This document shows, in pieces, positions 7,552 through 17,827 of a DNA stretch of 56,232 nucleotides. The stretch is taken from positions 1 through 56,232 of the forward strand of contig JAEEXY010000013.1 of assembly GCA_016288005.1 (NCBI GenBank). Reading direction: 5' to 3'. The notes beneath the pieces are model-generated. The model made no database searches. It saw only the letters and a list, made by a program, of their open reading frames with translations, and was not told the origin of the DNA. The position numbers and the translations under genes are program-made. Origin of the DNA: Lachnospiraceae bacterium. GTDB taxonomy: Bacteria > Bacillota > Clostridia > Lachnospirales > Lachnospiraceae. The first letter of the stretch is position 1. Each line of letters opens with the position of its first letter.

Positions 7552-8532
7552 ATGATCGTGGCAGCTTCAGTCGATAATGCGATACGCAGTTTGTTCCAGA
7601 TGATGGTGATCGTTGACGGTGAGACGGAACGGTATGAGATCGTCGATCATAACAGCGAGCTCGACAGCATATCCACGGGCTCGGAGGAGGATACAAAGCG
7701 CGGAGATTTCAGGACGCTGTGCAAAAACTTTAAAAAGCATATCCACCCTGCGGACAGAGAGGAGTTCAGAGAGTTTACCGACAGGGAGCATTACGCCGGG
7801 CGGCTGGGGACTCATGTTCATGTTTCCATGGAATGCAGGATCAGGCATTCGGACAGGAAATATTACTGGTCGGAGCTCGTTATGTGCAACACCGCGGAAG
7901 AGGACAGCACCGCGGGGTGCGATTTTGTTTTCATGGTCAGGGACATCAATGAAAGAAAGAGAGCCGAGCTCGCGCGCGAAGCCGAAGACCGTGCGATACT
8001 TAAAAAGCTCCAGGATAAATACGACAAACTTTTCGAGGAGAACATGACCGATCAGCAGACCGGCTGCTATAACCGCAAGGGCCTGAAGTACTACTCGGAG
8101 ATCGTCATAGAGGACGCGAAGAAAAACGACAGGCATCTGTTTGTGTGTGTTGCGGACCTGAACGGACTGAAATACCTGAACGACACCTTCGGACATGCGG
8201 CCGGAGACGAGGCGATCGCCGTGGTATCGTCGGAGCTGAAAAACGCGGCTCCCACGGGCAGCAAAGCGGTCCGCATAGGCGGAGACGAATTCCTCCTGTT
8301 CGCATCGATCGATCCGGACAGCCCCGAGCCGGATGAATTTGCCGTAAAGCTGGACAGCGCGATCGAGGCGTACAACAAGTCACATTCCAATCCCTACAAG
8401 GTCGGCGCGAGCTACGGCTGGGTGCTGCTTCCCGCGAAAGAGGACATGACGGGACTGGACGAATATATAGAGATCGCGGATCAGAAAATGTACGAAATGC
8501 GCGTGATAAGAGACAAATACAGAAGAGAATAA
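7552..8532 (+). CDS. PAS-GGDEF diguanylate cyclase
   Basis: A 326-residue soluble protein predicted to make cyclic di-GMP from two GTP. Residues ~1-135 resemble a PAS/PAC sensor (charged HPADREEF segment, conserved end MVRDINERKRAE), followed by a coiled coil (~135-165). The GGDEF domain starts near TDQQTGCYNRKGL. The active-site motif GGDEF is intact at residues 243-247, and metal-binding Asp lies in CVADLNGLKYLND. No I-site RxxD was recognised just upstream of GGDEF. The start at 7552 follows CGGAGG by 9 nt; nearby ATGs at 7544 and 7547 are in other frames. It precedes a gene with an intact HD-GYP phosphodiesterase, so synthesis and breakdown of the same messenger are encoded side by side. 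Confidence 0.9.
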   Translation: MIVAASVDNAIRSLFQMMVIVDGETERYEIVDHNSELDSISTGSEEDTKRGDFRTLCKNFKKHIHPADREEFREFTDREHYAGRLGTHVHVSMECRIRHSDRKYYWSELVMCNTAEEDSTAGCDFVFMVRDINERKRAELAREAEDRAILKKLQDKYDKLFEENMTDQQTGCYNRKGLKYYSEIVIEDAKKNDRHLFVCVADLNGLKYLNDTFGHAAGDEAIAVVSSELKNAAPTGSKAVRIGGDEFLLFASIDPDSPEPDEFAVKLDSAIEAYNKSHSNPYKVGASYGWVLLPAKEDMTGLDEYIEIADQKMYEMRVIRDKYRRE

Positions 8533-8615: not shown

Positions 8616-11600
8616 ATGAAAAAGTGGAAGACCTGGCAGATCATTCTGTTTATAGCAATGTGCGTATGTATGAATGTTTGCGGAAGGCTTATAGCCGTTC
8701 GCTTTGATTGGCCTATCTGGGCCGATTCGTTCGGCACCGCTCTGTGCGCCTACATCGCGGGACCCGTGTGCGGCGCGATGGTCGGACTTTCGGGAAACCT
8801 GGCATACGGCGTGGTCAATAACCTTTCTGTCGCCTACTGCATCACAAGTATCGCGCTCGGCGTTATCGTGGGCATCGCGGCCAAGAAGAAGTGGTTTGCG
8901 CAGTTCTTCGGTTTCATGATGGCTGCGTCTCTTACCGTGCTTACGGCACTGGTCGTTTCGGTTCCCATCAATTTTATCTTTAACAAAGGCTTAACGGGAA
9001 ACAAATGGGGCAACGGCGTTATAGCCTATTTTGTGACTAAAAAAGTGCCCTTCGTTCTCTGTGCCGTTATGGGACAGCTGGCCATCGAGTTTGCCGACAA
9101 AGTGCTTACGATCGCCGCTGTTTATATTGTTATTCTGATCAGACGCTGGTGGCGCAATGACCGCAGGGTAAAGGAGACCTTAAGCGGAGGATCCGCTGCG
9201 GCCGCAGTCATCATCATCTGTCTGTTTGCCGGCATTTCGAGCCCTTCGGCAGTTCATGCGGATACCGCGTATGTAACAGACACCACCGATTACAACGATT
9301 ATGTCCAGAGCGTCTACAGCAGCAACAACGGACTGCCCTGCGGTGAGGCGAACGACATCGCCCAGACCAATGACGGTGTTCTCTGGATCGGTACTTACGC
9401 AGGCCTCTACCGCTATAACGGACGTGAGTTCCGCTGGATAGACAACTATGAGAGCGTTAAGAACGTCAACTGCCTGTATGTCGATGAGGAAGGCCGTCTG
9501 TGGATAGGAACTAACGACAATGGTCTGGCCATCGTGATACGTGAGGAGGTAGTAAACGTACTCGACCAGTCTGACGGTCTGCCCTCCAATTCCGTGCGCT
9601 GCATCACGCGCGCTTCCGACGGATACTATTATGTCGGGACCACCGGCAGCATGCAGATACTGGCAATGAATAACGGCCTCAAGGCTGTGAATACACTCGG
9701 GGACATCAACTATGCCGACAGCATTTCCGCGGACGAGCGCGGACATGTGGCGACCGTTGCGTCTGACGGCAGGCTGTTCCTGCTCAAAGAAGGAGAAATA
9801 CAGGACTGCATTCAGCTTCCCGAGGGAGGCGAACTGTACAACTGCTGCGCATTCGCGCCCGGCGGGACACTGATGGTAGGTACCTCCACAAATCATATCT
9901 ATTGCTTTGATGTGAACGGTGATAAGTTTAAGGAACTCAGCATGATCACCTGCGAGGATGTAGCAAGTATCAACAACCTCAATTATCTCAGCGATGGAAC
10001 ACTGTTCATCTCCACTGACAGCGGCATTTCCTATATGGATGTTAACGGCTATCACCGCCTGAATACAAATGAGTTCAACAATTCGATCGACAACATGCTC
10101 TTTGACTATCAGGGCAATCTGTGGTTCACGTCATCGAGACTGGGACTCCTGCGTCTGGCCAAGTCGCCGTTCAAGGATGTGTACGGCGCGGTAGGCATGG
10201 AGCGCAGGGTGGTCAATGCCATCGTTTTCTGGCAGGGCAACTATTACATCGGCACCGATAAGGGGCTCGATGTGGTGGACAAGGCCTGCAGATACAGGAT
10301 AGAGAATACGCTTACCGAGGAGCTTGCGGGCAAGCGTATCCGATGCATGTATGTGGACAGCACCGGCCATCTGTGGGTATGCACCTATGGCAGCGGCCTG
10401 ATGGAATATGCGCCGAACGGCGAATCGTGGGCATACAATGCGGAAAACGGCAGCTTCGGCAGCCGCGCAAGGCTCGTGACCGGGCTCTCGGACGGTACTA
10501 TACTCGCGGCCGGAGATACGGGCATCAGTTTTATCCGCGATCATAAGATCGAAAAGACCGTCAAGAACGAGGACGGACTGATCAATTCGATGATCCTGAC
10601 AGCCACCGAAAGAGGCGACGGAACGATACTTGCGGGTACCGACGGAGACGGCATCGCCGTACTGAAGAACGGTGAGGTCGTGGACATGATCACGCGTGAG
10701 GACGGCCTGAGCAGCGGTGTTATCCTGCGTACCGTAAAGGATCCCAAATCGGAAGGCGTGTTCATCGTTACGAGCAACAGCCTCTGCTATATGGAGCCGG
10801 GCGGAACGATCAGGGTACTCGACCAGTTCCCGTATTTCAACAACTATGACATCTGGGTAAAGGATGAGGATACCCTCTTCGTTATGTCGAGCGCCGGAAT
10901 CTATGTGGTTGAGCGCGACGAGCTCGTTGCGGGCGTAGATATGGTATGGGAACTCCTCGATGCCAGAAGAGGTCTTGGTACATCCCTTACCGCCAACTCA
11001 TGGAACTATTACAACGGCAATGGTGAGCTGTTCCTTCCGTGCGATACCGGAGCATATATAATCGATGTGGAAAAATACAACAGTGATGTGCGTTCGTACC
11101 GTATGCAGCTGGCATCGATACGCGTGGACGGCAAGCTCCAGCCTCTGCCCCGCACCGGCGCCATCACGATCGGACAGGGTGTCAGCCGTATAGAGCTGGC
11201 TCCCGAGATCCTGAACTATACCATACAGGAGCCCAATGTAGGTTACTATCTCGAACACTGTGATCCCACATGGATCATTGTTCCGCAGAACAGCCTGAAC
11301 AACATCAGCTATTCGAATATTCCCGCGGGTTCTTACACTTTCAGCATCGCCATATTCGACAGTGCGGGTGAGCATATCCTCGAGAAACGCAGTTTTGAAC
11401 TGGTCAAAGAAGGTGAATTCTACGAGAAAAGGGGCTTTAAGGTCTATATGCTCTTGCTGCTCTCGACTTTCCTTGTATGGTGCACCTGGTTCATTGTACA
11501 GAGACAGCTGAACAAGCAGGAGATCAAGCTGAACATGGCAAACGAGACAGTACTTGCGATAGCGAAGGCCGTCGATGCCAAGGATGTGCGAACTCATCAG

Positions 11601-12305
11601 CACTCCATGCGTGTTGCGGAATACTCCGAGCTGATAGCGGAAGAGATGAACTGCTTCAAGTGGTGGGAGCGCAGAAAGGCCCTCTCAAATCTGAAAAAAG
11701 CCGCGCAGCTGCATGATATCGGCAAGATCGGCATACCCGACGTAGTTCTGAACAAGGTCGGACGACTGACCGACGACGAATACGCGAAGATGAAATCGCA
11801 TGTTGTGCGCGGAGCCGAGATACTCAAGGATTTCACGCTGGTGGAGCATGTTGAGGAGGGCGCCAGATTCCATCATGAGCGCTTTGACGGACGCGGCTAT
11901 CCTGACGGACTCAAAGGCGAAGAGATACCGCTGTTCGCCAGGATCATAGGCGTGGCCGACGCTTTCGACGCCATGACTTCAAACCGTGTTTACCGTAATC
12001 ATATGGACAGCGATTACGTTATGAACGAGATGAAGCGCGGCAGGGGCACGCAGTTCGACCCCGAAGCTCTCGATGCGTTCTTCCGCCTTGTGGATAAGCA
12101 CGTTATCGATCTTGACCGTCTCTATGCCGAAAAACGTGCGGAGATCCAGATGGCTGTCGATCAGGAGGCTCAGGAAGAGCTGAAACGCCGTGTGGAAGAG
12201 GACAAAAAGATACAGGCTGACGAGATGAAGAGCGGCCCGGATGAAGCCGCAAAGACCGAAACGGCCGGGGATGCCGCAGCGACCGGGAAAGGAGATAAGG
12301 TATGA
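8616..12305 (+). CDS. ECF-S-like membrane domain, beta-propeller, Y_Y_Y and HD-GYP fusion
   Basis: A 1229-residue membrane sensor predicted to hydrolyse cyclic di-GMP. The start at 8616 has a GGGGAGG site; an in-frame TTG at 8577 overlaps the promoter and is rejected. Residues ~1-195 are several membrane helices resembling an ECF-transporter substrate-binding (S) subunit, including IWADSFGTALCAYIAGP and GAMVGLSGNLAYG. A further helix follows at ~190-214. Residues ~235-820 are an extracellular propeller with repeats such as DGVLWIGTYAGLYRYNG and EEGRLWIGTNDNGL. A Y_Y_Y domain follows at ~828-930, then a helix (~943-962). The HD-GYP domain (~985-1165) keeps its key residues: HQHS, HDIGK (H1033-D1034), HHERFDGRGYP and ADAFDAM. 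The C-terminal tail is charged. The fusion of an ECF-S-like part to a propeller phosphodiesterase is unusual. The ECF-S assignment is by general pattern only. Confidence 0.85.
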   Translation: MKKWKTWQIILFIAMCVCMNVCGRLIAVRFDWPIWADSFGTALCAYIAGPVCGAMVGLSGNLAYGVVNNLSVAYCITSIALGVIVGIAAKKKWFAQFFGFMMAASLTVLTALVVSVPINFIFNKGLTGNKWGNGVIAYFVTKKVPFVLCAVMGQLAIEFADKVLTIAAVYIVILIRRWWRNDRRVKETLSGGSAAAAVIIICLFAGISSPSAVHADTAYVTDTTDYNDYVQSVYSSNNGLPCGEANDIAQTNDGVLWIGTYAGLYRYNGREFRWIDNYESVKNVNCLYVDEEGRLWIGTNDNGLAIVIREEVVNVLDQSDGLPSNSVRCITRASDGYYYVGTTGSMQILAMNNGLKAVNTLGDINYADSISADERGHVATVASDGRLFLLKEGEIQDCIQLPEGGELYNCCAFAPGGTLMVGTSTNHIYCFDVNGDKFKELSMITCEDVASINNLNYLSDGTLFISTDSGISYMDVNGYHRLNTNEFNNSIDNMLFDYQGNLWFTSSRLGLLRLAKSPFKDVYGAVGMERRVVNAIVFWQGNYYIGTDKGLDVVDKACRYRIENTLTEELAGKRIRCMYVDSTGHLWVCTYGSGLMEYAPNGESWAYNAENGSFGSRARLVTGLSDGTILAAGDTGISFIRDHKIEKTVKNEDGLINSMILTATERGDGTILAGTDGDGIAVLKNGEVVDMITREDGLSSGVILRTVKDPKSEGVFIVTSNSLCYMEPGGTIRVLDQFPYFNNYDIWVKDEDTLFVMSSAGIYVVERDELVAGVDMVWELLDARRGLGTSLTANSWNYYNGNGELFLPCDTGAYIIDVEKYNSDVRSYRMQLASIRVDGKLQPLPRTGAITIGQGVSRIELAPEILNYTIQEPNVGYYLEHCDPTWIIVPQNSLNNISYSNIPAGSYTFSIAIFDSAGEHILEKRSFELVKEGEFYEKRGFKVYMLLLLSTFLVWCTWFIVQRQLNKQEIKLNMANETVLAIAKAVDAKDVRTHQHSMRVAEYSELIAEEMNCFKWWERRKALSNLKKAAQLHDIGKIGIPDVVLNKVGRLTDDEYAKMKSHVVRGAEILKDFTLVEHVEEGARFHHERFDGRGYPDGLKGEEIPLFARIIGVADAFDAMTSNRVYRNHMDSDYVMNEMKRGRGTQFDPEALDAFFRLVDKHVIDLDRLYAEKRAEIQMAVDQEAQEELKRRVEEDKKIQADEMKSGPDEAAKTETAGDAAATGKGDKV

Positions 12306-13498
12306 AGCGTGTATATATCACAACTGCGCTGACCTGTCTGGTCGTACTTTTCGCATTCATAGGTCTTTTCAGGGCACTGGATCTGTCGGGCGGACGGAGC
12401 AGCCTGAAGGTGGGTTTCATCTACGACAATGATGAGAGTACGCCGTATACCTATAATTTCTCGCTGGCCAAGGACGCGCTCGAAAAGAAATACGGAGACC
12501 GCGTGAAGATATTTACCAGCAGCAATGTGCTGGACGATGAGATGGAAGAACCGCTCAGGGAAATGGCTGAGAAAGGCTGCGACATCATATTTTTCAACGG
12601 TTACAGCGAACTGGTCGTAAAACTGGCCCCCGAATATCCGGATATCGAGTTCTGTCAGGCCTCTTACAGAGACATGAACGGCGTCGAAGTCCCTGACAAC
12701 TACCACACATTCAAGGGCGAGGCCTATCAGGGCAGATACGTGAGCGGTATCGCGGCAGGACTTAAGATAGCCCAGCTGATCTCGGACGGTGTTATCACAA
12801 AGGATCAGGCCAATGTCGGATTTGTGGCCGCATTCCCCACATCCGAGGTTATCTCGGGATATACGGCCTTTATCCTGGGTGTGCGTTCCGTTGTTCCGGA
12901 AGCGACCATGCGTGTCTGCTACACTCATACATGGAGCAGCTACGCACAGGAAAAGAAAGCCGCAGAGAAAATGATAGCCAAAGGCTGCGTGATCATATCG
13001 CAGCACACCGATACGATAGGACCCGCCATAGCCTGCGAGGAGGCTCTGCAGGAGGGCAGACAGGTATATTTCGTCGGATATAACCAGAGTATGTCAGAGG
13101 TAGCACCGGGCTCGTCGCTTGTTACCTCGAGAGTATGCTGGGAGCCGTATGTGCTGGCGGCCGCGGAGGCTCTTTTCAAGAATAAGCCGATAGAGACAGT
13201 GGTTGCGGGACATATTCACGGACACGACGTTTCGGCCGGATTTGAGAGAGGCTGGGTGGAAATGCTGGACCTGAACGAGCAGGTTGCCGCGCCCCGCACC
13301 CAGACGGCCATGAACAACGCGATAGATCAGTTTAAGCGCGGAGGCGGAGATTTCGTATTCCGCGGCAATTATATCGGAGTCGATCCCGATGAGCCCACAA
13401 ATACGATCAGTCTGAAGGGCGGCTACTCCGAGAACGCGAACACCTCGTATCCGCTGTTCGGGTACATACTGACGGATATCATAACGATAGAGGAATAA
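12302..13498 (+). CDS. Membrane-anchored BMP/PnrA-like binding protein
   Basis: A 398-residue protein whose ATG overlaps the stop of the HD-GYP gene by 4 nt (ATGA), so the two are made together. An N-terminal hydrophobic segment (TTALTCLVVLFAFIGLF) has no lipobox Cys and looks like an uncleaved anchor. The rest is a BMP-family (basic membrane protein, PnrA-like) fold: VGFIYDND, KGCDIIFFNGYSE, FCQASYRD, GEAYQGRYVSGIAAG, VGFVAAFP, GCVIISQHTDT and VGYNQSM. Characterised relatives bind purine nucleosides as transporter subunits. No ABC permease or ATPase follows here. It may instead deliver ligand occupancy to the ECF-S-like or propeller part of its partner. The ligand is unknown. Confidence 0.82.
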   Translation: MKRVYITTALTCLVVLFAFIGLFRALDLSGGRSSLKVGFIYDNDESTPYTYNFSLAKDALEKKYGDRVKIFTSSNVLDDEMEEPLREMAEKGCDIIFFNGYSELVVKLAPEYPDIEFCQASYRDMNGVEVPDNYHTFKGEAYQGRYVSGIAAGLKIAQLISDGVITKDQANVGFVAAFPTSEVISGYTAFILGVRSVVPEATMRVCYTHTWSSYAQEKKAAEKMIAKGCVIISQHTDTIGPAIACEEALQEGRQVYFVGYNQSMSEVAPGSSLVTSRVCWEPYVLAAAEALFKNKPIETVVAGHIHGHDVSAGFERGWVEMLDLNEQVAAPRTQTAMNNAIDQFKRGGGDFVFRGNYIGVDPDEPTNTISLKGGYSENANTSYPLFGYILTDIITIEE

Positions 13499-13528: not shown

Positions 13529-13906
13529 TCATTTCTTTTTCTCAAGATCCTTCGCGTGAGCCTTGATCGCGTCAAAGGTCTTATCGCTGATATAATGCTC
13601 GACCCTGCAGGCATCCTCGGCGGCTGTCTCCGCGTCAACGCCCAGGTCGGTAAAAAGCTTTGTGAGCACGGTGTGGCGCTCGTAAATGCGCTGCGCCAAG
13701 ATCTCGCCTGCCTTGGTAAGCTTTAAAGACCCGTCATCGTCCTTTTTGACGAGGCCCTCATCCTTTAAGAGTCCGATGGCACGGCTGACGGAAGGCTTAG
13801 AAAAACCCATGTGCTCGCCGACATCTATCGCGCGAACGGAACTCGACTCCTGTGACAGAACATAGATCGTCTCCAAATACATTTCTCCGGATTCCATCAG
13901 TGACAT
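13529..13906 (-). CDS. DtxR/MntR-family metal-dependent repressor, short form (1)
   Basis: A 125-residue protein with an N-terminal winged helix (SSSVRAIDVGEHMGFSKPSVSRAI, split by position here) and a metal-binding and dimerisation region. Candidate ligands lie in HTVLTKLF and EDACRVEHYIS, matching the family helix E..C..EH. It ends after this region, so it lacks the SH3-like third domain of long DtxR proteins, as in MntR. The start at 13906 has a GAGGGGGG site 7 nt away; an in-frame ATG at 13930 has none. It is divergent from feoA and is the obvious candidate to bind the GTTAG-N6-CTAAC sites in between. Which metal it senses is not readable; the feo genes point to iron(II). Confidence 0.9.
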   Translation of the reverse strand: MSLMESGEMYLETIYVLSQESSSVRAIDVGEHMGFSKPSVSRAIGLLKDEGLVKKDDDGSLKLTKAGEILAQRIYERHTVLTKLFTDLGVDAETAAEDACRVEHYISDKTFDAIKAHAKDLEKKK

Positions 13907-13943
13907 ATCGTAACCCCCCTCAAGCAACATCTTATCATATTAG

Positions 13944-13952
13944 ATTATACCA
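13944..13952 (-). promoter_or_regulatory. Extended -10 promoter of the first dtxR-like gene
   Basis: On the minus strand TGG-TATAAT forms an extended -10 element about 40 bp before the ATG at 13906. There is no convincing -35 box and no GTTAG-N6-CTAAC site on it, so this repressor gene is probably not under the palindrome. Confidence 0.5.
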
Positions 13953-14000
13953 TACAAATTACGAGTTGGGAAAAAATATTAAAAAAAAATAAAAAAGTGC

Positions 14001-14029
14001 TTGACAGGTTAGCTACGTCTAACTATAAT
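14001..14029 (+). promoter_or_regulatory. Consensus promoter of the feo operon
   Basis: A perfect TTGACA (14001-14006) and a perfect TATAAT (14024-14029) are exactly 17 bp apart. The whole spacer is filled by the first operator copy, so a repressor bound there would block RNA polymerase directly. Confidence 0.92.
14008..14023. promoter_or_regulatory. Metal operator copy 1 (feo promoter spacer)
   Basis: A 16-bp palindrome GTTAG-CTACGT-CTAAC between the -35 and -10 boxes of the feo promoter. It is the best-placed repressor site in the window. Confidence 0.82.
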
Positions 14030-14037
14030 GAGGAACG

Positions 14038-14053
14038 GTTAGAGCAGACTAAC
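14038..14053. promoter_or_regulatory. Metal operator copy 2 (feo leader)
   Basis: GTTAG-AGCAGA-CTAAC, starting 30 bp after copy 1 and covering roughly +2 to +18 of the feo transcript. The spacing is close to three helical turns, so repressors would sit on the same face of the DNA. Confidence 0.78.
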
Positions 14054-14071
14054 TTTTTTGTTTGCACCTGA

Positions 14072-14087
14072 GTTAGATACGGCTAAC
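14072..14087. promoter_or_regulatory. Metal operator copy 3 (feo leader)
   Basis: GTTAG-ATACGG-CTAAC, 34 bp after copy 2 and 23 bp before the feoA ATG. Third of the cluster at this promoter. Confidence 0.76.
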
Positions 14088-14110
14088 AAAACGAAAAAGG
14101 GAGGAATAAC

Positions 14111-14323
14111 ATGATGCCCCTTATTTATGCGGAAGCGGGACAGCCCCAGATCATCAAAAAGATCGGCGGGAGTCCGGAAGTTAAAAAGCACCTGGAAGAT
14201 CTGGGCTTTAATGTAGGCGGCGAGGTAAGCGTAATGAACTCACTCGGCGAGAATCTGATCGTAAAGGTCAAAGAGAGCCGTGTGGCTGTCAGTGATGAAC
14301 TTGCCAGAAAAATAATGGTCTGA
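14111..14323 (+). CDS. feoA: FeoA-family iron transport accessory protein (1)
   Basis: A 70-residue SH3-like FeoA domain that in characterised systems helps the FeoB iron(II) channel at the cytoplasmic face. Conserved features: hydrophobic start, KHLEDLGFNVGGEVSVMN and a C-terminal VAVSDELARKIMV. A GGGAGG site precedes ATGATG at 14111. It is the first gene of the feo operon, downstream of a consensus promoter with three palindromic operators. It is one of two unequal FeoA copies. This one keeps the LGFNVGGEV turn and the other has MGITKNTEI. Confidence 0.92.
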   Translation: MMPLIYAEAGQPQIIKKIGGSPEVKKHLEDLGFNVGGEVSVMNSLGENLIVKVKESRVAVSDELARKIMV

Positions 14324-14336
14324 GGAGGAGAAAACA

Positions 14337-14558
14337 TTGAAAACACTGAGAGACGTAAAGATCGGACAGACGGTCAAGGTTGTTAAGCTTCATGGCGAAG
14401 GCGCGGTAAAGCGCAGGATCATGGACATGGGGATCACCAAGAATACGGAGATCTATGTCCGTAAGGTCGCACCCCTGGGAGATCCCATCGAGGTAACGGT
14501 CAGGAATTACGAGCTGTCTCTGCGTAAGGCTGACGCGGAGATGGTAGAGGTTGAATAA
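14337..14558 (+). CDS. feoA: FeoA-family iron transport accessory protein (2)
   Basis: A 73-residue second FeoA domain protein starting at TTG (14337), 7 nt after GGAGGAG and 13 nt after the first feoA. Motifs: LRDVKIGQTVKVVKLHGEG, RRIMDMGITKNTEIYV, and a C-terminal YELSLRKADAEMVEVE that matches the FeoA SH3 end. Paired small FeoA proteins before FeoB are common in clostridia. The pair probably forms a complex with FeoB rather than acting separately. Confidence 0.92.
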   Translation: MKTLRDVKIGQTVKVVKLHGEGAVKRRIMDMGITKNTEIYVRKVAPLGDPIEVTVRNYELSLRKADAEMVEVE

Positions 14559-14561
14559 TAC

Positions 14562-14577
14562 GTTAGCATGAACTAAC
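14562..14577. promoter_or_regulatory. Metal operator copy 4 (between feoA and feoB)
   Basis: GTTAG-CATGAA-CTAAC in the 62-bp gap between the second feoA and feoB. No strong promoter is visible beside it, so it may be a roadblock site or mark a weak internal promoter. Confidence 0.7.
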
Positions 14578-14620
14578 AAAAGATCAGTAAGCGAATGATA
14601 ATTGAAAGGACATAAATAAG

Positions 14621-17107
14621 ATGAACTTACGTATTGCACTTGCAGGAAACCCGAACAGCGGTAAAACGACCCTGTTCAATGCCCTGACCGGTTCGAATCA
14701 GTTTGTCGGCAACTGGCCCGGAGTAACCGTGGAGAAAAAGGAAGGTAAATTAAAAAAGCACGATGATATCACCATCACCGACCTTCCCGGAATCTATTCA
14801 CTTTCTCCCTATACACTGGAGGAAGTTGTTGCCAGAAACTATCTGCTCGGCGAGCGTCCCGACGCGATCCTGAACATCGTTGACGGTACCAACCTTGAGA
14901 GAAACCTGTATCTTACCACACAGCTTACCGAGATCGGTATCCCGGTAGTCGTAGCGATCAACATGATCGATGTTGTCAGAAAGAACGGCGACAAGATCGA
15001 CATCGCAGAGCTTTCCAGACAGCTCGGCTGTAAGGTTGTTGAGATCTCCGCCCTGAAGGAGACCGGCATCATGGAGGCAGCCGAGGCTGCCATCGACGCG
15101 GCAAAGAATACAAAGACGGTTCCCCAGCACACCTTCTCGGGTCCCGTTGAGCATGCGATCGCGCATATCGAGGAAGCGATCGTTCACGATATGCCTGAGG
15201 AGCAGCAGAGATGGTACGCCATCAAGATCTTCGAGCGTGACGACAAGGTGCTCTCTTCAATGAATATCCCTTCGGACAAGCTCGCGCATGTTGAAAAGGA
15301 TATCGCAGCGGCAGAGAAGGAGCTCGACGATGACGCGGAGAGCATCATCACCAACGAGCGTTATGTATATATCGCAGAGGTCATCAAGGCCTGCTATAAG
15401 AAAAAGAAGGCGGGCGCCCTGACAACGTCCGATAAGATCGATAAGATCGTGACCAACAGATGGCTCGGACTTCCGATATTCGCAGTTGTTATGTTCCTGG
15501 TTTACTGGATCGCGATGGTCGGTGTCGGCGCATCGGCTACCGACTGGGCAAACGACGGACTGTTCGGTGACGGATGGCATCTGTTCGGTATCGGCGGCAG
15601 AGCGGCCGATGAGGCAGCAGAAGAGTACGGCGACGCTATGAGCGCTATCGGCGCATATCTTGAAGTAGACGCTGAAGACGAAGAGTTTGACGCCGATGCG
15701 GCTATCGCCGAACTGGAAGGCATCACCGGTCCCGCAACTTCCACCGTTGAGGTAGAGGATGAGGAAACGCTCGCGGTAGACGAGATGACGGTATACTACG
15801 ATGCTGTTCCCGAGGACGCTGACGAAGGCGTTATCGGAATGTCCTTTAAGGATGCGGTCGCTTATGTTAAGGAGAACGGCTTTGAGGAGCCCGATCCCGC
15901 GGACTACGGCGTATGGGTACCCGGCGTGCCTGTTCTTATCGAGAGCCTTCTCGACAAGATCGGAACCGCAGACTGGCTCAAGAGCCTTATCCTGGACGGT
16001 ATCGTAGCCGGCGTAGGCGCGGTACTCGGATTTGTTCCCCAGATGCTCGTACTGTTCCTGATGCTTGCGTTCCTTGAGGCTTGCGGCTACATGGCGCGTA
16101 TCGCATTCGTGCTCGACCGTATCTTCAGACGTTTCGGTCTTTCGGGCAAGTCCTTCATTCCCATGCTGGTCGGCACCGGCTGCGGTATCCCCGGCATCAT
16201 GGCATCACGTACCATCGAGAATGAGCGTGACCGCCGTATGACGATCATGACCACGACATTTATCCCCTGCGGCGCTAAGGTTCCCTTCATCGCGATGATC
16301 GCAGGCGCGATCTTCGGCGGCAGCGCATGGATCTCGACAGGCGCATATTTCATCGGTATGGCGGCGATCATCATCTCCGGCGTAATGCTTAAGAAGACAA
16401 AGATGTTCGCGGGAGATCCCGCTCCCTTCGTTATGGAGCTTCCCGCTTACCATATGCCGACACTCGGCAATGTACTCCGCTCCATGTGGGAGCGCGGCTG
16501 GTCCTTCATCAAGAAGGCAGGCACGATCATCCTTATCTCGCAGATCGTTGTATGGTTCCTTTCGGGCTTCGGCTTCGCGGAGGACGGCTTCAGGATGCTT
16601 GAGGAGGATGAGATCTCGATCTCGATCCTTGCAAAGGTCGGAAATGCCATTGCATGGCTGTTCACTCCTCTCGGATGGGGCAACTGGCAGGCAGCGGTCG
16701 CATCGTTTACAGGTCTCGTAGCTAAGGAGAACATCGTAGGTACGATGGGCGTTCTCTACGGAGGCGGAGAAGAGGGCCTCTATGCTACACTCGCAGGCGT
16801 ATTCACCGGAGTTACCGGTATGTCGTTCCTGGTATTCAATCTTCTGTGCGCACCCTGCTTCGCTGCTATCGGTGCCATCAGACGTGAGATGAACAACGCG
16901 AAGTGGACCTGGTTCGCTATCCTTTATCAGTGCGGTTTCGCATATGTGATCGCTCTTATGATCAACCAGTTCGGCGGCCTTTTCACCGGCAATGCGAACG
17001 TACTCGGCCTGATCTTTGCGATCGCATTACTTGCGGTTATCGTTTACATGCTGTTCTTTAAGAAGTATACTGAAGCTGCAAAGCTTACAAAAGAAGTTAA
17101 GATCTGA
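14621..17107 (+). CDS. feoB: Ferrous iron transporter FeoB with large acidic insertion
   Basis: An 828-residue membrane GTPase for iron(II) uptake. The N-terminal G domain has G1 GNPNSGKT (9-16), G3 DLPG (54-57) and G4 NMID (114-117), then the helical spacer domain. The first membrane helix starts near residue 290. Gate motifs LEACGYMARIAFVLDR, GTGCGIPGIMASRTI and FIPCGAKVPFIAMIAG, with the conserved Cys, are present, and the C-terminal helices follow. Residues ~327-431 are an extra loop of about 100 residues rich in Asp and Glu, between the first helix and LILDGIVAGVGAVLGF. Typical clostridial FeoB lacks such a large loop, which explains the length. It would lie outside the membrane. The gene is preceded by operator copy 4 and followed by a Cys-rich partner gene. 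Confidence 0.95.
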   Translation: MNLRIALAGNPNSGKTTLFNALTGSNQFVGNWPGVTVEKKEGKLKKHDDITITDLPGIYSLSPYTLEEVVARNYLLGERPDAILNIVDGTNLERNLYLTTQLTEIGIPVVVAINMIDVVRKNGDKIDIAELSRQLGCKVVEISALKETGIMEAAEAAIDAAKNTKTVPQHTFSGPVEHAIAHIEEAIVHDMPEEQQRWYAIKIFERDDKVLSSMNIPSDKLAHVEKDIAAAEKELDDDAESIITNERYVYIAEVIKACYKKKKAGALTTSDKIDKIVTNRWLGLPIFAVVMFLVYWIAMVGVGASATDWANDGLFGDGWHLFGIGGRAADEAAEEYGDAMSAIGAYLEVDAEDEEFDADAAIAELEGITGPATSTVEVEDEETLAVDEMTVYYDAVPEDADEGVIGMSFKDAVAYVKENGFEEPDPADYGVWVPGVPVLIESLLDKIGTADWLKSLILDGIVAGVGAVLGFVPQMLVLFLMLAFLEACGYMARIAFVLDRIFRRFGLSGKSFIPMLVGTGCGIPGIMASRTIENERDRRMTIMTTTFIPCGAKVPFIAMIAGAIFGGSAWISTGAYFIGMAAIIISGVMLKKTKMFAGDPAPFVMELPAYHMPTLGNVLRSMWERGWSFIKKAGTIILISQIVVWFLSGFGFAEDGFRMLEEDEISISILAKVGNAIAWLFTPLGWGNWQAAVASFTGLVAKENIVGTMGVLYGGGEEGLYATLAGVFTGVTGMSFLVFNLLCAPCFAAIGAIRREMNNAKWTWFAILYQCGFAYVIALMINQFGGLFTGNANVLGLIFAIALLAVIVYMLFFKKYTEAAKLTKEVKI

Positions 17108-17126
17108 TAATATGTAGTTTATGATC

Positions 17127-17154
17127 CCCGGCAGCCGGAACTAAGGCTGCCGGG
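17127..17154 (+). other. Intercistronic hairpin after feoB
   Basis: A perfect 10-bp GC-rich stem (CCCGGCAGCC / GGCTGCCGGG) with an 8-nt loop and no U-tract, between feoB and its small partner gene. More likely an mRNA processing or stability element than a terminator. Confidence 0.6.
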
Positions 17155-17179
17155 ATAAGAGTGAGAAGCGGAGGATAAT

Positions 17180-17350
17180 ATGCTTGAGTTTTTATCCGAA
17201 AATCTCGGAACTATCATTGTTGCGGCGGTTTTGCTCGTTATCGTATTTTTTGTCGTAAGAAGCATGATCGTCTCGAAAAAGAAAGGAAAAACCACCTGCG
17301 GGTGCGGCTGCGCGAACTGCGCGATGAACGGCACCTGCCATAAAAAATGA
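17180..17350 (+). CDS. FeoB-associated Cys-rich membrane protein
   Basis: A 56-residue protein with a GGAGG site shortly before its ATG. Residues ~10-30 form one membrane helix (GTIIVAAVLLVIVFFVVRSM), followed by a Lys-rich stretch. The tail CGCGCANCAMNGTC has five cysteines, a likely metal-binding cluster in the cytoplasm by the positive-inside rule. It matches the FeoB_associated family, small proteins found next to FeoB in Firmicutes and thought to play a FeoC-like role. It is the last gene of the feo operon and is followed at once by a terminator. Confidence 0.85.
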   Translation: MLEFLSENLGTIIVAAVLLVIVFFVVRSMIVSKKKGKTTCGCGCANCAMNGTCHKK

Positions 17351-17386
17351 AAGATTTAACCCTGAAGTTAAGTCTTTTATTTTTTA
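17351..17386 (+). terminator. Terminator of the feo operon
   Basis: A 10-bp stem (AAGATTTAAC / GTTAAGTCTT with one G-U) around a CCTGAA loop, followed by a long T-rich tract. It starts directly after the stop of the Cys-rich gene. Confidence 0.85.
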
Positions 17387-17394
17387 AATGTACA

Positions 17395-17410
17395 GTTAGA
17401 CAAGGCTAAC
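17395..17410. promoter_or_regulatory. Metal operator copy 5 (second dtxR-like gene)
   Basis: GTTAG-ACAAGG-CTAAC, 27 bp before the ATG at 17438 and just after the feo terminator. It suggests that the second repressor gene and the genes behind it are metal-regulated, possibly autoregulated. No clear promoter boxes were found around it. Confidence 0.78.
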
Positions 17411-17437
17411 TGCCTGAAAAGGGGTTTAAAAGGATAT

Positions 17438-17827
17438 ATGGTACTGACTGCTACTAATAATTCTACCGAGGATTATCTGAAAAATATTTTGATCCTGCAT
17501 ACCAGAAACGGCTGCGTAAGGGCTGTCGACCTGGCTGCGGAACTGGGAGTGACGAAACCCAGCGTCAGCGCGGCAATGAAGAGACTCCGCGCGAAAAAGC
17601 TGGTATTCATAAACGAAAACGGTCATATATGCCTCACCGAGGCCGGCAGGGCCATTGCCGAAGAGATCAACAGCAAACATGAGCTGATCAAGCATTTTCT
17701 CATGAACATAGGCGTAAATGAAAAAACTGCGGCAAAAGAAGCATGCAGCATCGAGCATGCCATAGGTGAAGAAACATATGCCCGTTTGGGGGAATTCTGC
17801 AGCAAAACTATGCTCGGTCTTAAATAA
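17438..17827 (+). CDS. DtxR/MntR-family metal-dependent repressor, short form (2)
   Basis: A 129-residue paralogue of the repressor at 13529, again without an SH3 domain. Winged helix: EDYLKNILIL, VRAVDLAAELGVTKPSVSAA and LVFINENGHICLTEAGR. Metal region: SKHELIKHFLMNIGV and KEACSIEHAIGEET, with the C..EH pattern. An AAAGGA site precedes the ATG. It lies directly behind operator copy 5 and 26 nt before a methyltransferase gene, so it probably leads that operon. Two similar repressors with one operator type raise the question of which one reads which metal. Confidence 0.9.
   Translation: MVLTATNNSTEDYLKNILILHTRNGCVRAVDLAAELGVTKPSVSAAMKRLRAKKLVFINENGHICLTEAGRAIAEEINSKHELIKHFLMNIGVNEKTAAKEACSIEHAIGEETYARLGEFCSKTMLGLK

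Follow-up and report, generated by a model that had tools for sequence, protein, structure and literature searches.

The analysis reported here concerns a stretch of 56,232 nucleotides from a Lachnospiraceae bacterium (GenBank assembly GCA_016288005.1, contig JAEEXY010000013.1, forward strand; hereafter the window) and, within it, a receptor gene whose product joins a membrane domain related to the substrate-binding S-components of energy-coupling factor (ECF) transporters to a beta-propeller, a Y_Y_Y domain and an HD-GYP domain. Together with the next gene, which encodes a binding protein of the BMP/PnrA family, it is best explained (with a probability of roughly 60%) as a two-gene nutrient-sensing operon, in which a transporter-type S domain has been captured as a receptor with an HD-GYP output. 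This explanation is based on the identities of the domains, the fold, the active-site residues, the pairing of the two genes, the pocket of the BMP protein and the kinship with transporters, from which we infer the class of the ligand, the direction of the switch, a contact of the BMP protein with the receptor, and cyclic di-GMP (c-di-GMP) as the substrate.

In the proposed mechanism, an S-component of a nucleoside-type uptake family would have been captured as the membrane part of the receptor, the part outside the cell being a predicted double propeller with a Y_Y_Y domain and the part inside a putative HD-GYP phosphodiesterase. The membrane-anchored BMP protein would bind at the cell surface a compound that is purine-like or otherwise of nucleoside type, and ligand in the S domain and/or the BMP protein would rearrange the propeller, the Y_Y_Y domain and the transmembrane helix, a change that may switch the hydrolysis of the cyclic dinucleotide.

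The domain architecture of the 1229-residue open reading frame had been proposed in an earlier note on this DNA, and was confirmed with family profiles and a structure model (Table 1). A scan with the S domain returned at least 470 relatives, of which 80 loci, mostly Lachnospiraceae or Butyrivibrio from ruminants, were kept for analysis; the S domain and the propeller occur in all 80 frames and an HD domain as well in 72. Receptors of the window type are referred to as class A and kept apart from the other long receptors. Alignment A2 comprises 74 of the 80 loci and the window, and alignment A3 comprises 36 of the 80 and the window. Six of the 16 class A loci of a second locus set are taken to lie on the same contigs as loci of the 80 set, and the pooled counts of 85 BMP proteins and 91 class A receptors given below hold duplicates.

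The N-terminal domain was found to have a six-helix S-component fold (model pLDDT 93), and the best 21 rows of its Foldseek matches in the PDB were all S-components. The NCBIfam profile of the CD3073 ECF-S family (NF045596) matches the protein with an E-value of 6e-17, yet with 61.8 bits against a cut-off of 180, and PF12822 with an E-value of 0.31; judged by sequence, the S domain is related to the curated ECF-S family, below whose cut-off it falls, and is not an equivalog. The placement of the N-terminus with ECF-S domains, also made in the earlier note, is upheld by the agreement of sequence family and fold, which rules out a MASE or 5TM sensor. Up to E=1 the protein has no match to Pfam MASE or 5TM families or to PF07694 (5TMR-LYT), and its model starts with helix 6-29, with no extra N-terminal helix (H0) ahead of the S-component set. 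One ortholog (L046) reaches 19.4 bits with PF07694, below the cut-off of 24.6, and weak sub-cut-off matches of this kind in some relatives are expected from the shared fold. Seven residues, N20, W35, D37, N129, W131, D161 and K162, are identical in all 74 class A rows and are assumed to line the pocket; N129 and W131 belong to a GN-x-WG motif that is complete in 70 of these rows.

The second line of evidence comes from the partner gene. A BMP gene lies directly downstream of the receptor gene in 72 of the 72 loci with enough sequence (70 by open reading frame, L080 and L131 by tblastn), eight of the 80 loci ending at a contig edge and not being countable, and beside 15 of the 16 second-set class A loci (S domain 33-67% identical). 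This near-constant adjacency to the gene of a nutrient-binding protein in close relatives is the reason for reading the receptor as an uptake protein turned nutrient sensor. A receptor copy with an in-frame stop (L048:9098-12820) also still has its BMP gene. The closest solved relatives of the BMP protein are 3s99, its best match, and AtzT. According to the available passages of PMC6834077, 3s99 was deposited or modelled with adenine, and guanine is held in AtzT by Tyr45, Glu165, Trp194, Asn218 and Asn220; with our own mapping of AtzT residues (chain position plus 5), these align with Y49, E182, W211, H235 and D237 of the BMP protein. Y49, E182, W211 and D237 are each conserved in 85/85 BMP proteins and H235 in 83/85. 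No lipobox was found in the BMP protein of the window, and the pattern occurs in six of the 85.

Kinship with transporters was examined in an unrooted tree of 91 S domains, in which a branch supported at 100/99 groups 17 stand-alone transporters and adjoins all the propeller receptors of the tree (95/87), while receptors of 720 residues are placed elsewhere, near transporters with sugar-kinase neighbours. A constraint that unites all receptors in one clade was rejected (p=0.0285, a modest value in a tree with long branches). From this placement and the rejected constraint, the receptors probably arose more than once. Since receptors and an identified transporter clade share one tree, the change from transporter to receptor, ligand included, becomes testable.

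The 17 transporters (L070, L071, L158-L172) are stand-alone frames of about 200 residues at E<=1e-52 in a family-wide draw of genomes; genes counted as neighbours lay on the same strand no more than five genes away and were identified by BLAST to a small set of reference proteins. All 17 carry the GN-x-WG motif and have EcfT and EcfA beside them; a nucleoside phosphorylase is found at 11, a NiaR-like regulator at nine (the one searched matches NiaR in the PDB with E=5e-31) and a gene of the isochorismatase family, which includes nicotinamidases, at four. NadA is encoded in one of the 17 genomes, compared with 160 of the 380 others (Fisher p=0.002, without correction for kinship). Judged by gene content, the 17 GN-x-WG operons resemble transporters of precursors of nicotinamide adenine dinucleotide (NAD), riboside or niacin, and a nicotinamide-riboside-type substrate would fit. 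Known niacin transporters are present in just 25% of niacin-auxotrophic gut genomes, according to the available passages of PMC6593275.

Several observations weigh against the nutrient-sensing interpretation or narrow it. The GN-x-WG motif is not universal, being present in 34 of the 45 long receptors of the second locus set. One transporter of the clade with the motif (L160:2737-5625) differs from its kin in having none of the nucleoside or niacin genes nearby; riboflavin synthesis genes lie 590 nucleotides away. NadA is not rarer in the 34 class A receptor genomes (13/34; frames of at least 1170 residues at E<=3e-50, chosen by eye) than elsewhere (148/363), so that niacin auxotrophy was rejected as a correlate of the receptor and the receptor hosts lend a niacin-nucleoside reading no support; the window's own genome has no NadA and no 3H/NiaR matches, which is compatible with several readings. 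Ser97 and Phe98 of AtzT fall into a gap of the BMP alignment, and the class A-like locus L051 and the 30 other long receptors, seven of which have less than 1.2 kb of downstream sequence, were seen without a BMP gene next to them. Further, R992 occupies the place of a metal ligand of the HD-GYP domain, as described below. Because the receptor hosts show no NadA bias, the call is limited to a class: the ligand would be a nucleoside or nucleobase, with NAD-precursor nucleosides and purines as first candidates.

A rival interpretation concerns the segment linking S domain and propeller. It resembles a signal peptide, and processing may leave two mature chains; the earlier note's view of one protein thus holds for the reading frame and is in doubt for the mature chain. 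Once transmembrane helices (TM) 1-6 have been inserted, residues 186-216 would serve as a signal peptide within the chain, to be cut by signal peptidase I after the AxA site; this would yield an S-component-like receptor on its own and a propeller-HD-GYP protein of type-I membrane topology. Such a polyprotein, to which we give slightly less than even odds, is compatible with the sensing operon and alters what is physically linked. In the segment an AxA-type site (SSPSAVHA/D) comes after a short hydrophobic core, and the full model shows a helix of just 11 residues there, with pLDDT below 50 at 182-245. In counts that left out short S-domain matches, [AVST]xA was found up to 17 residues past the core in 89/91 class A receptors (shuffled mean 64.9) and in 29 of the 30 other long receptors (19.8). 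These scores lie above those of the controls (shuffled means in parentheses): in class A 7/91 (11.1) for TM1 and 12/91 (30.9) for TM3, in the other long receptors 4/30 (5.3) for TM1 and 7/30 (5.9) for TM3, in the BMP anchors 5/85 (3.6) and in propeller-less receptors 2/8 (2.6), although TM1 of the latter ran contrary with 5/8 (2.1). The region is alanine-rich, however, and shuffled windows already score 71% in class A and 66% in the others; class A has a weak basic stretch ahead of the core, with a median net charge of +1 (+3 in the other long receptors), and the motif may have persisted as a remnant of the fusion event. Two propeller proteins that lack an ECF-S domain served as positive control and scored 0/2, one being fragmentary and the other having G at position -3. 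The cytochrome b/c1 polyprotein FbcH of Bradyrhizobium is a precedent, for which a literature search did not turn up a source. Given the alanine-rich region and the uninformative positive control, we put forward a split into two chains by signal peptidase as a hypothesis, one that is a serious possibility on sequence grounds.

Alternatively, the BMP protein could be the sole sensor of the ligand and the S domain just an anchor or dimer module, as the conserved BMP pocket and the strict receptor-BMP pairing would allow. We consider this unlikely, as the seven polar or aromatic S-domain residues with an assumed pocket role are identical in every class A row and the 30 other long receptors with a similar S domain, seven of them with little downstream sequence, were seen without a BMP gene.

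The HD-GYP domain of the window protein has the HD pair (H1033, D1034) and the motif HHERFDGRGYP, which follows the HHExxDGxGYP pattern. The available passages on PmGH (PMC4159591) name eight metal ligands of a trinuclear set, seven of which are kept as H996, H1033, D1034, H1062, H1086, H1087 and D1115, all invariant in 37/37 aligned proteins. At the place of the eighth, E185 of PmGH, stands R992, so that the core, called intact in the earlier note, lacks one ligand of the full trinuclear set; the sequence suggests a metal centre of the two-metal type, and a different substrate preference is possible. It could thus be argued that the domain is not mainly directed at c-di-GMP, preferring 3'3'-cGAMP or pGpG or having a regulatory role, a view to which the lost ligand and the best sequence match, V-cGAP3 (5z7c, E=6e-42), both lend themselves. 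The remaining seven ligands and the GYP motif speak against it, as do the three PilZ and 20 HD_5 (HD-GYP) matches in the window's genome, which indicate a cyclic-dinucleotide network, and it is regarded as improbable.

Still more doubtful is a dual function, in which the S domain would dock on the EcfT of the genome and import its ligand as well as signal. The genome has one EcfT match to dock on, located on another contig, which supports the earlier note's contrast with ECF S-components that pair with an energising module; the note's ligand logic stays conjectural. Transport is tied to AxxxA in helix 1 in the available passages of Partipilo and Slotboom (2024; PMC11109136). Class A has small residues at both places taken to correspond (A/S/T at 14 in 67/74, C/S/G/A at 18 in 65/74), the register to ThiT being provisional, and loss of AxxxA was dropped as proof of uncoupling from EcfT. 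Pro14 of helix 1, however, occurs in 17/17 nearest transporters and in 24 of the 28 stand-alone rows that have a residue at this position (a class that also takes in fragments of the broken receptor L048 and the general ECF-S genes L042 and L043), and is missing in all 129 fused rows; in the same comparison the cut proteins L138 and L146 entered the mid-size class by length. No EcfT match was found in the stretches around the 16 second-set class A loci, six of which have general ABC ATPases nearby, and, following an argument in the available passages of PMC11109136, toppling should be impeded by so large a C-terminal extension. Uncoupling of the S domain from EcfT is considered likely on sequence grounds. 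A chance fusion or assembly error is ruled out by recurrence of the receptor architecture across loci.

A fuller version of the nutrient-sensing reading, in which a nucleoside-type (possibly nicotinamide-riboside-type) ECF component became a receptor, probably at least twice, as a split polyprotein with a surface-anchored BMP co-receptor, is offered tentatively.

The ECF-S/propeller/HD-GYP architecture is common in ruminant Lachnospiraceae. The family-wide draw gave an S-domain match (E<=1e-6) in 146 of 397 genomes and a frame of at least 1170 residues at E<=3e-50 in 34; in a class-wide draw, 10 of 391 passed 1e-25, all three long frames belonging to the window's own family and two frames of 719 residues to another. 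The earlier note had regarded HD-GYP as an unusual output, a view that does not hold, as HisKA and GGDEF versions of the same front exist and HD-GYP is ordinary among them; the 30 other long receptors have matches to Reg_prop (29), response regulator (21), HisKA (19), HATPase_c (16), HD (7) and GGDEF (3). Three further complete ECF-S/HD-GYP proteins of 719-739 residues, with no propeller match, are encoded in the window's genome. Propeller-less proteins of this kind, 594-739 residues long, were observed at L038, L040, L041 and L077, three of them from that genome, and seem to represent a second capture of the S domain. At L061 and L064-L068, adjoining genes encode a protein of about 650 residues, an HD-GYP-like protein of 448-450 residues (by BLAST only) and an ECF-S-propeller protein, which at L065 has HisKA and receiver matches and no HATPase_c match. 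Two general ECF-S loci of the window's genome, L042 and L043, are near-alike by eye, each with a GGDEF-like gene two open reading frames away.

Table 1. Features of the receptor operon and its upstream neighbour in the window
Feature	Position	Strand	Remarks
PAS-GGDEF gene	7552..8532	+	directly upstream of receptor gene
ECF-S / propeller / Y_Y_Y / HD-GYP receptor gene	8616..12305	+	1229 residues, single open reading frame
ECF S-component domain	8616..9185	+	residues 1-190, six membrane helices
Signal-peptide-like segment	9171..9263	+	about residues 186-216; possible cut after A215 (AVHA/D)
Double beta-propeller	9348..11066	+	about residues 245-817; Reg_prop E=2e-24, model strands
Y_Y_Y sandwich	11097..11408	+	about residues 828-931; PF07495 25.7 bits (slightly below cut-off of 26.6) and model
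Membrane helix and start of cytoplasmic linker helix	11430..11510	+	about residues 939-965; sequence; model helix 939-987
HD-GYP domain	11547..12125	+	about residues 978-1170
BMP/PnrA-family binding protein, N-terminal hydrophobic anchor	12302..13498	+	start overlaps receptor stop; PF02608 E=5e-24, 85.2 bits (cut-off 24.1)

The PAS-GGDEF gene probably stands outside the receptor system, since among 16 other class A loci only L052 has a GGDEF-like gene (26% identity) directly upstream. An upstream sugar ABC operon was excluded from the system; closely similar copies of its genes were seen beside L044 only. Further downstream (13529-17827), a FeoB-like gene is flanked by a pair of DtxR-type regulators encoded on opposite strands; FeoB and the second regulator were named by eye from the sequence.

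S-component-fold receptors as such are already known. In the available passages of Partipilo and Slotboom (2024; PMC11109136), S-component folds are described as acting as receptors, with many outputs of 5TMR domains including GGDEF and EAL, and trees could not resolve the history of the fold in receptors; a passage search of that text found no mention of HD-GYP or propeller. The literature searched, which did not extend to subscription papers or to the supplements of PMC11109136, gave no description of an ECF-S/propeller/HD-GYP fusion. The earlier note had allowed that the architecture might be widespread and described; it is common, whereas no description was found. On the whole, the interpretation given in that note is partly supported, the BMP-family partner gene, the place of the S domain next to the 17 transporters on the tree and the signal-peptide-like segment having been missed.

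Like the window protein, the 5TMR-LYT histidine kinases (BtsS, YpdA, LytS) use an S-component-fold membrane domain as a receptor with modular outputs, as far as the available passages describe them. The window protein differs in having neither H0 nor PF07694, in matching a named ECF-S family and sharing a tree with transporters, and in adding an extracellular propeller, a second membrane pass, an HD-GYP output and a BMP partner gene. The S domain of CD3073-family ECF transporters is homologous and shares N129 and W131 of GN-x-WG with the window protein, but in the window the domain is fused to signalling parts, has no adjacent EcfT and has lost Pro14. The hybrid two-component systems of the 4a2l or BT3049 type have the same ectodomain of double propeller and Y_Y_Y, whereas the window protein has an S-component domain in front and HD-GYP in place of the histidine kinase. 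From the HD-GYP phosphodiesterases PmGH and PA4781 it differs by R992 for E185 and by a wholly different sensory part. The partner BMP protein shares family and most pocket residues with the purine-binding proteins AtzT and 3s99, having H/D, as has 3s99, where AtzT has N/N; unlike these, it has a hydrophobic N-terminal anchor, no lipobox and no ABC permease noticed by eye among the next genes of the window.

The operon would give a bacterial family of the ruminant gut a defined input to cyclic-dinucleotide control, and may be a case of signal-peptidase processing within a receptor gene. If the split polyprotein is true, it would represent a nutrient-to-c-di-GMP pathway whose parts are made equimolar by cleavage.

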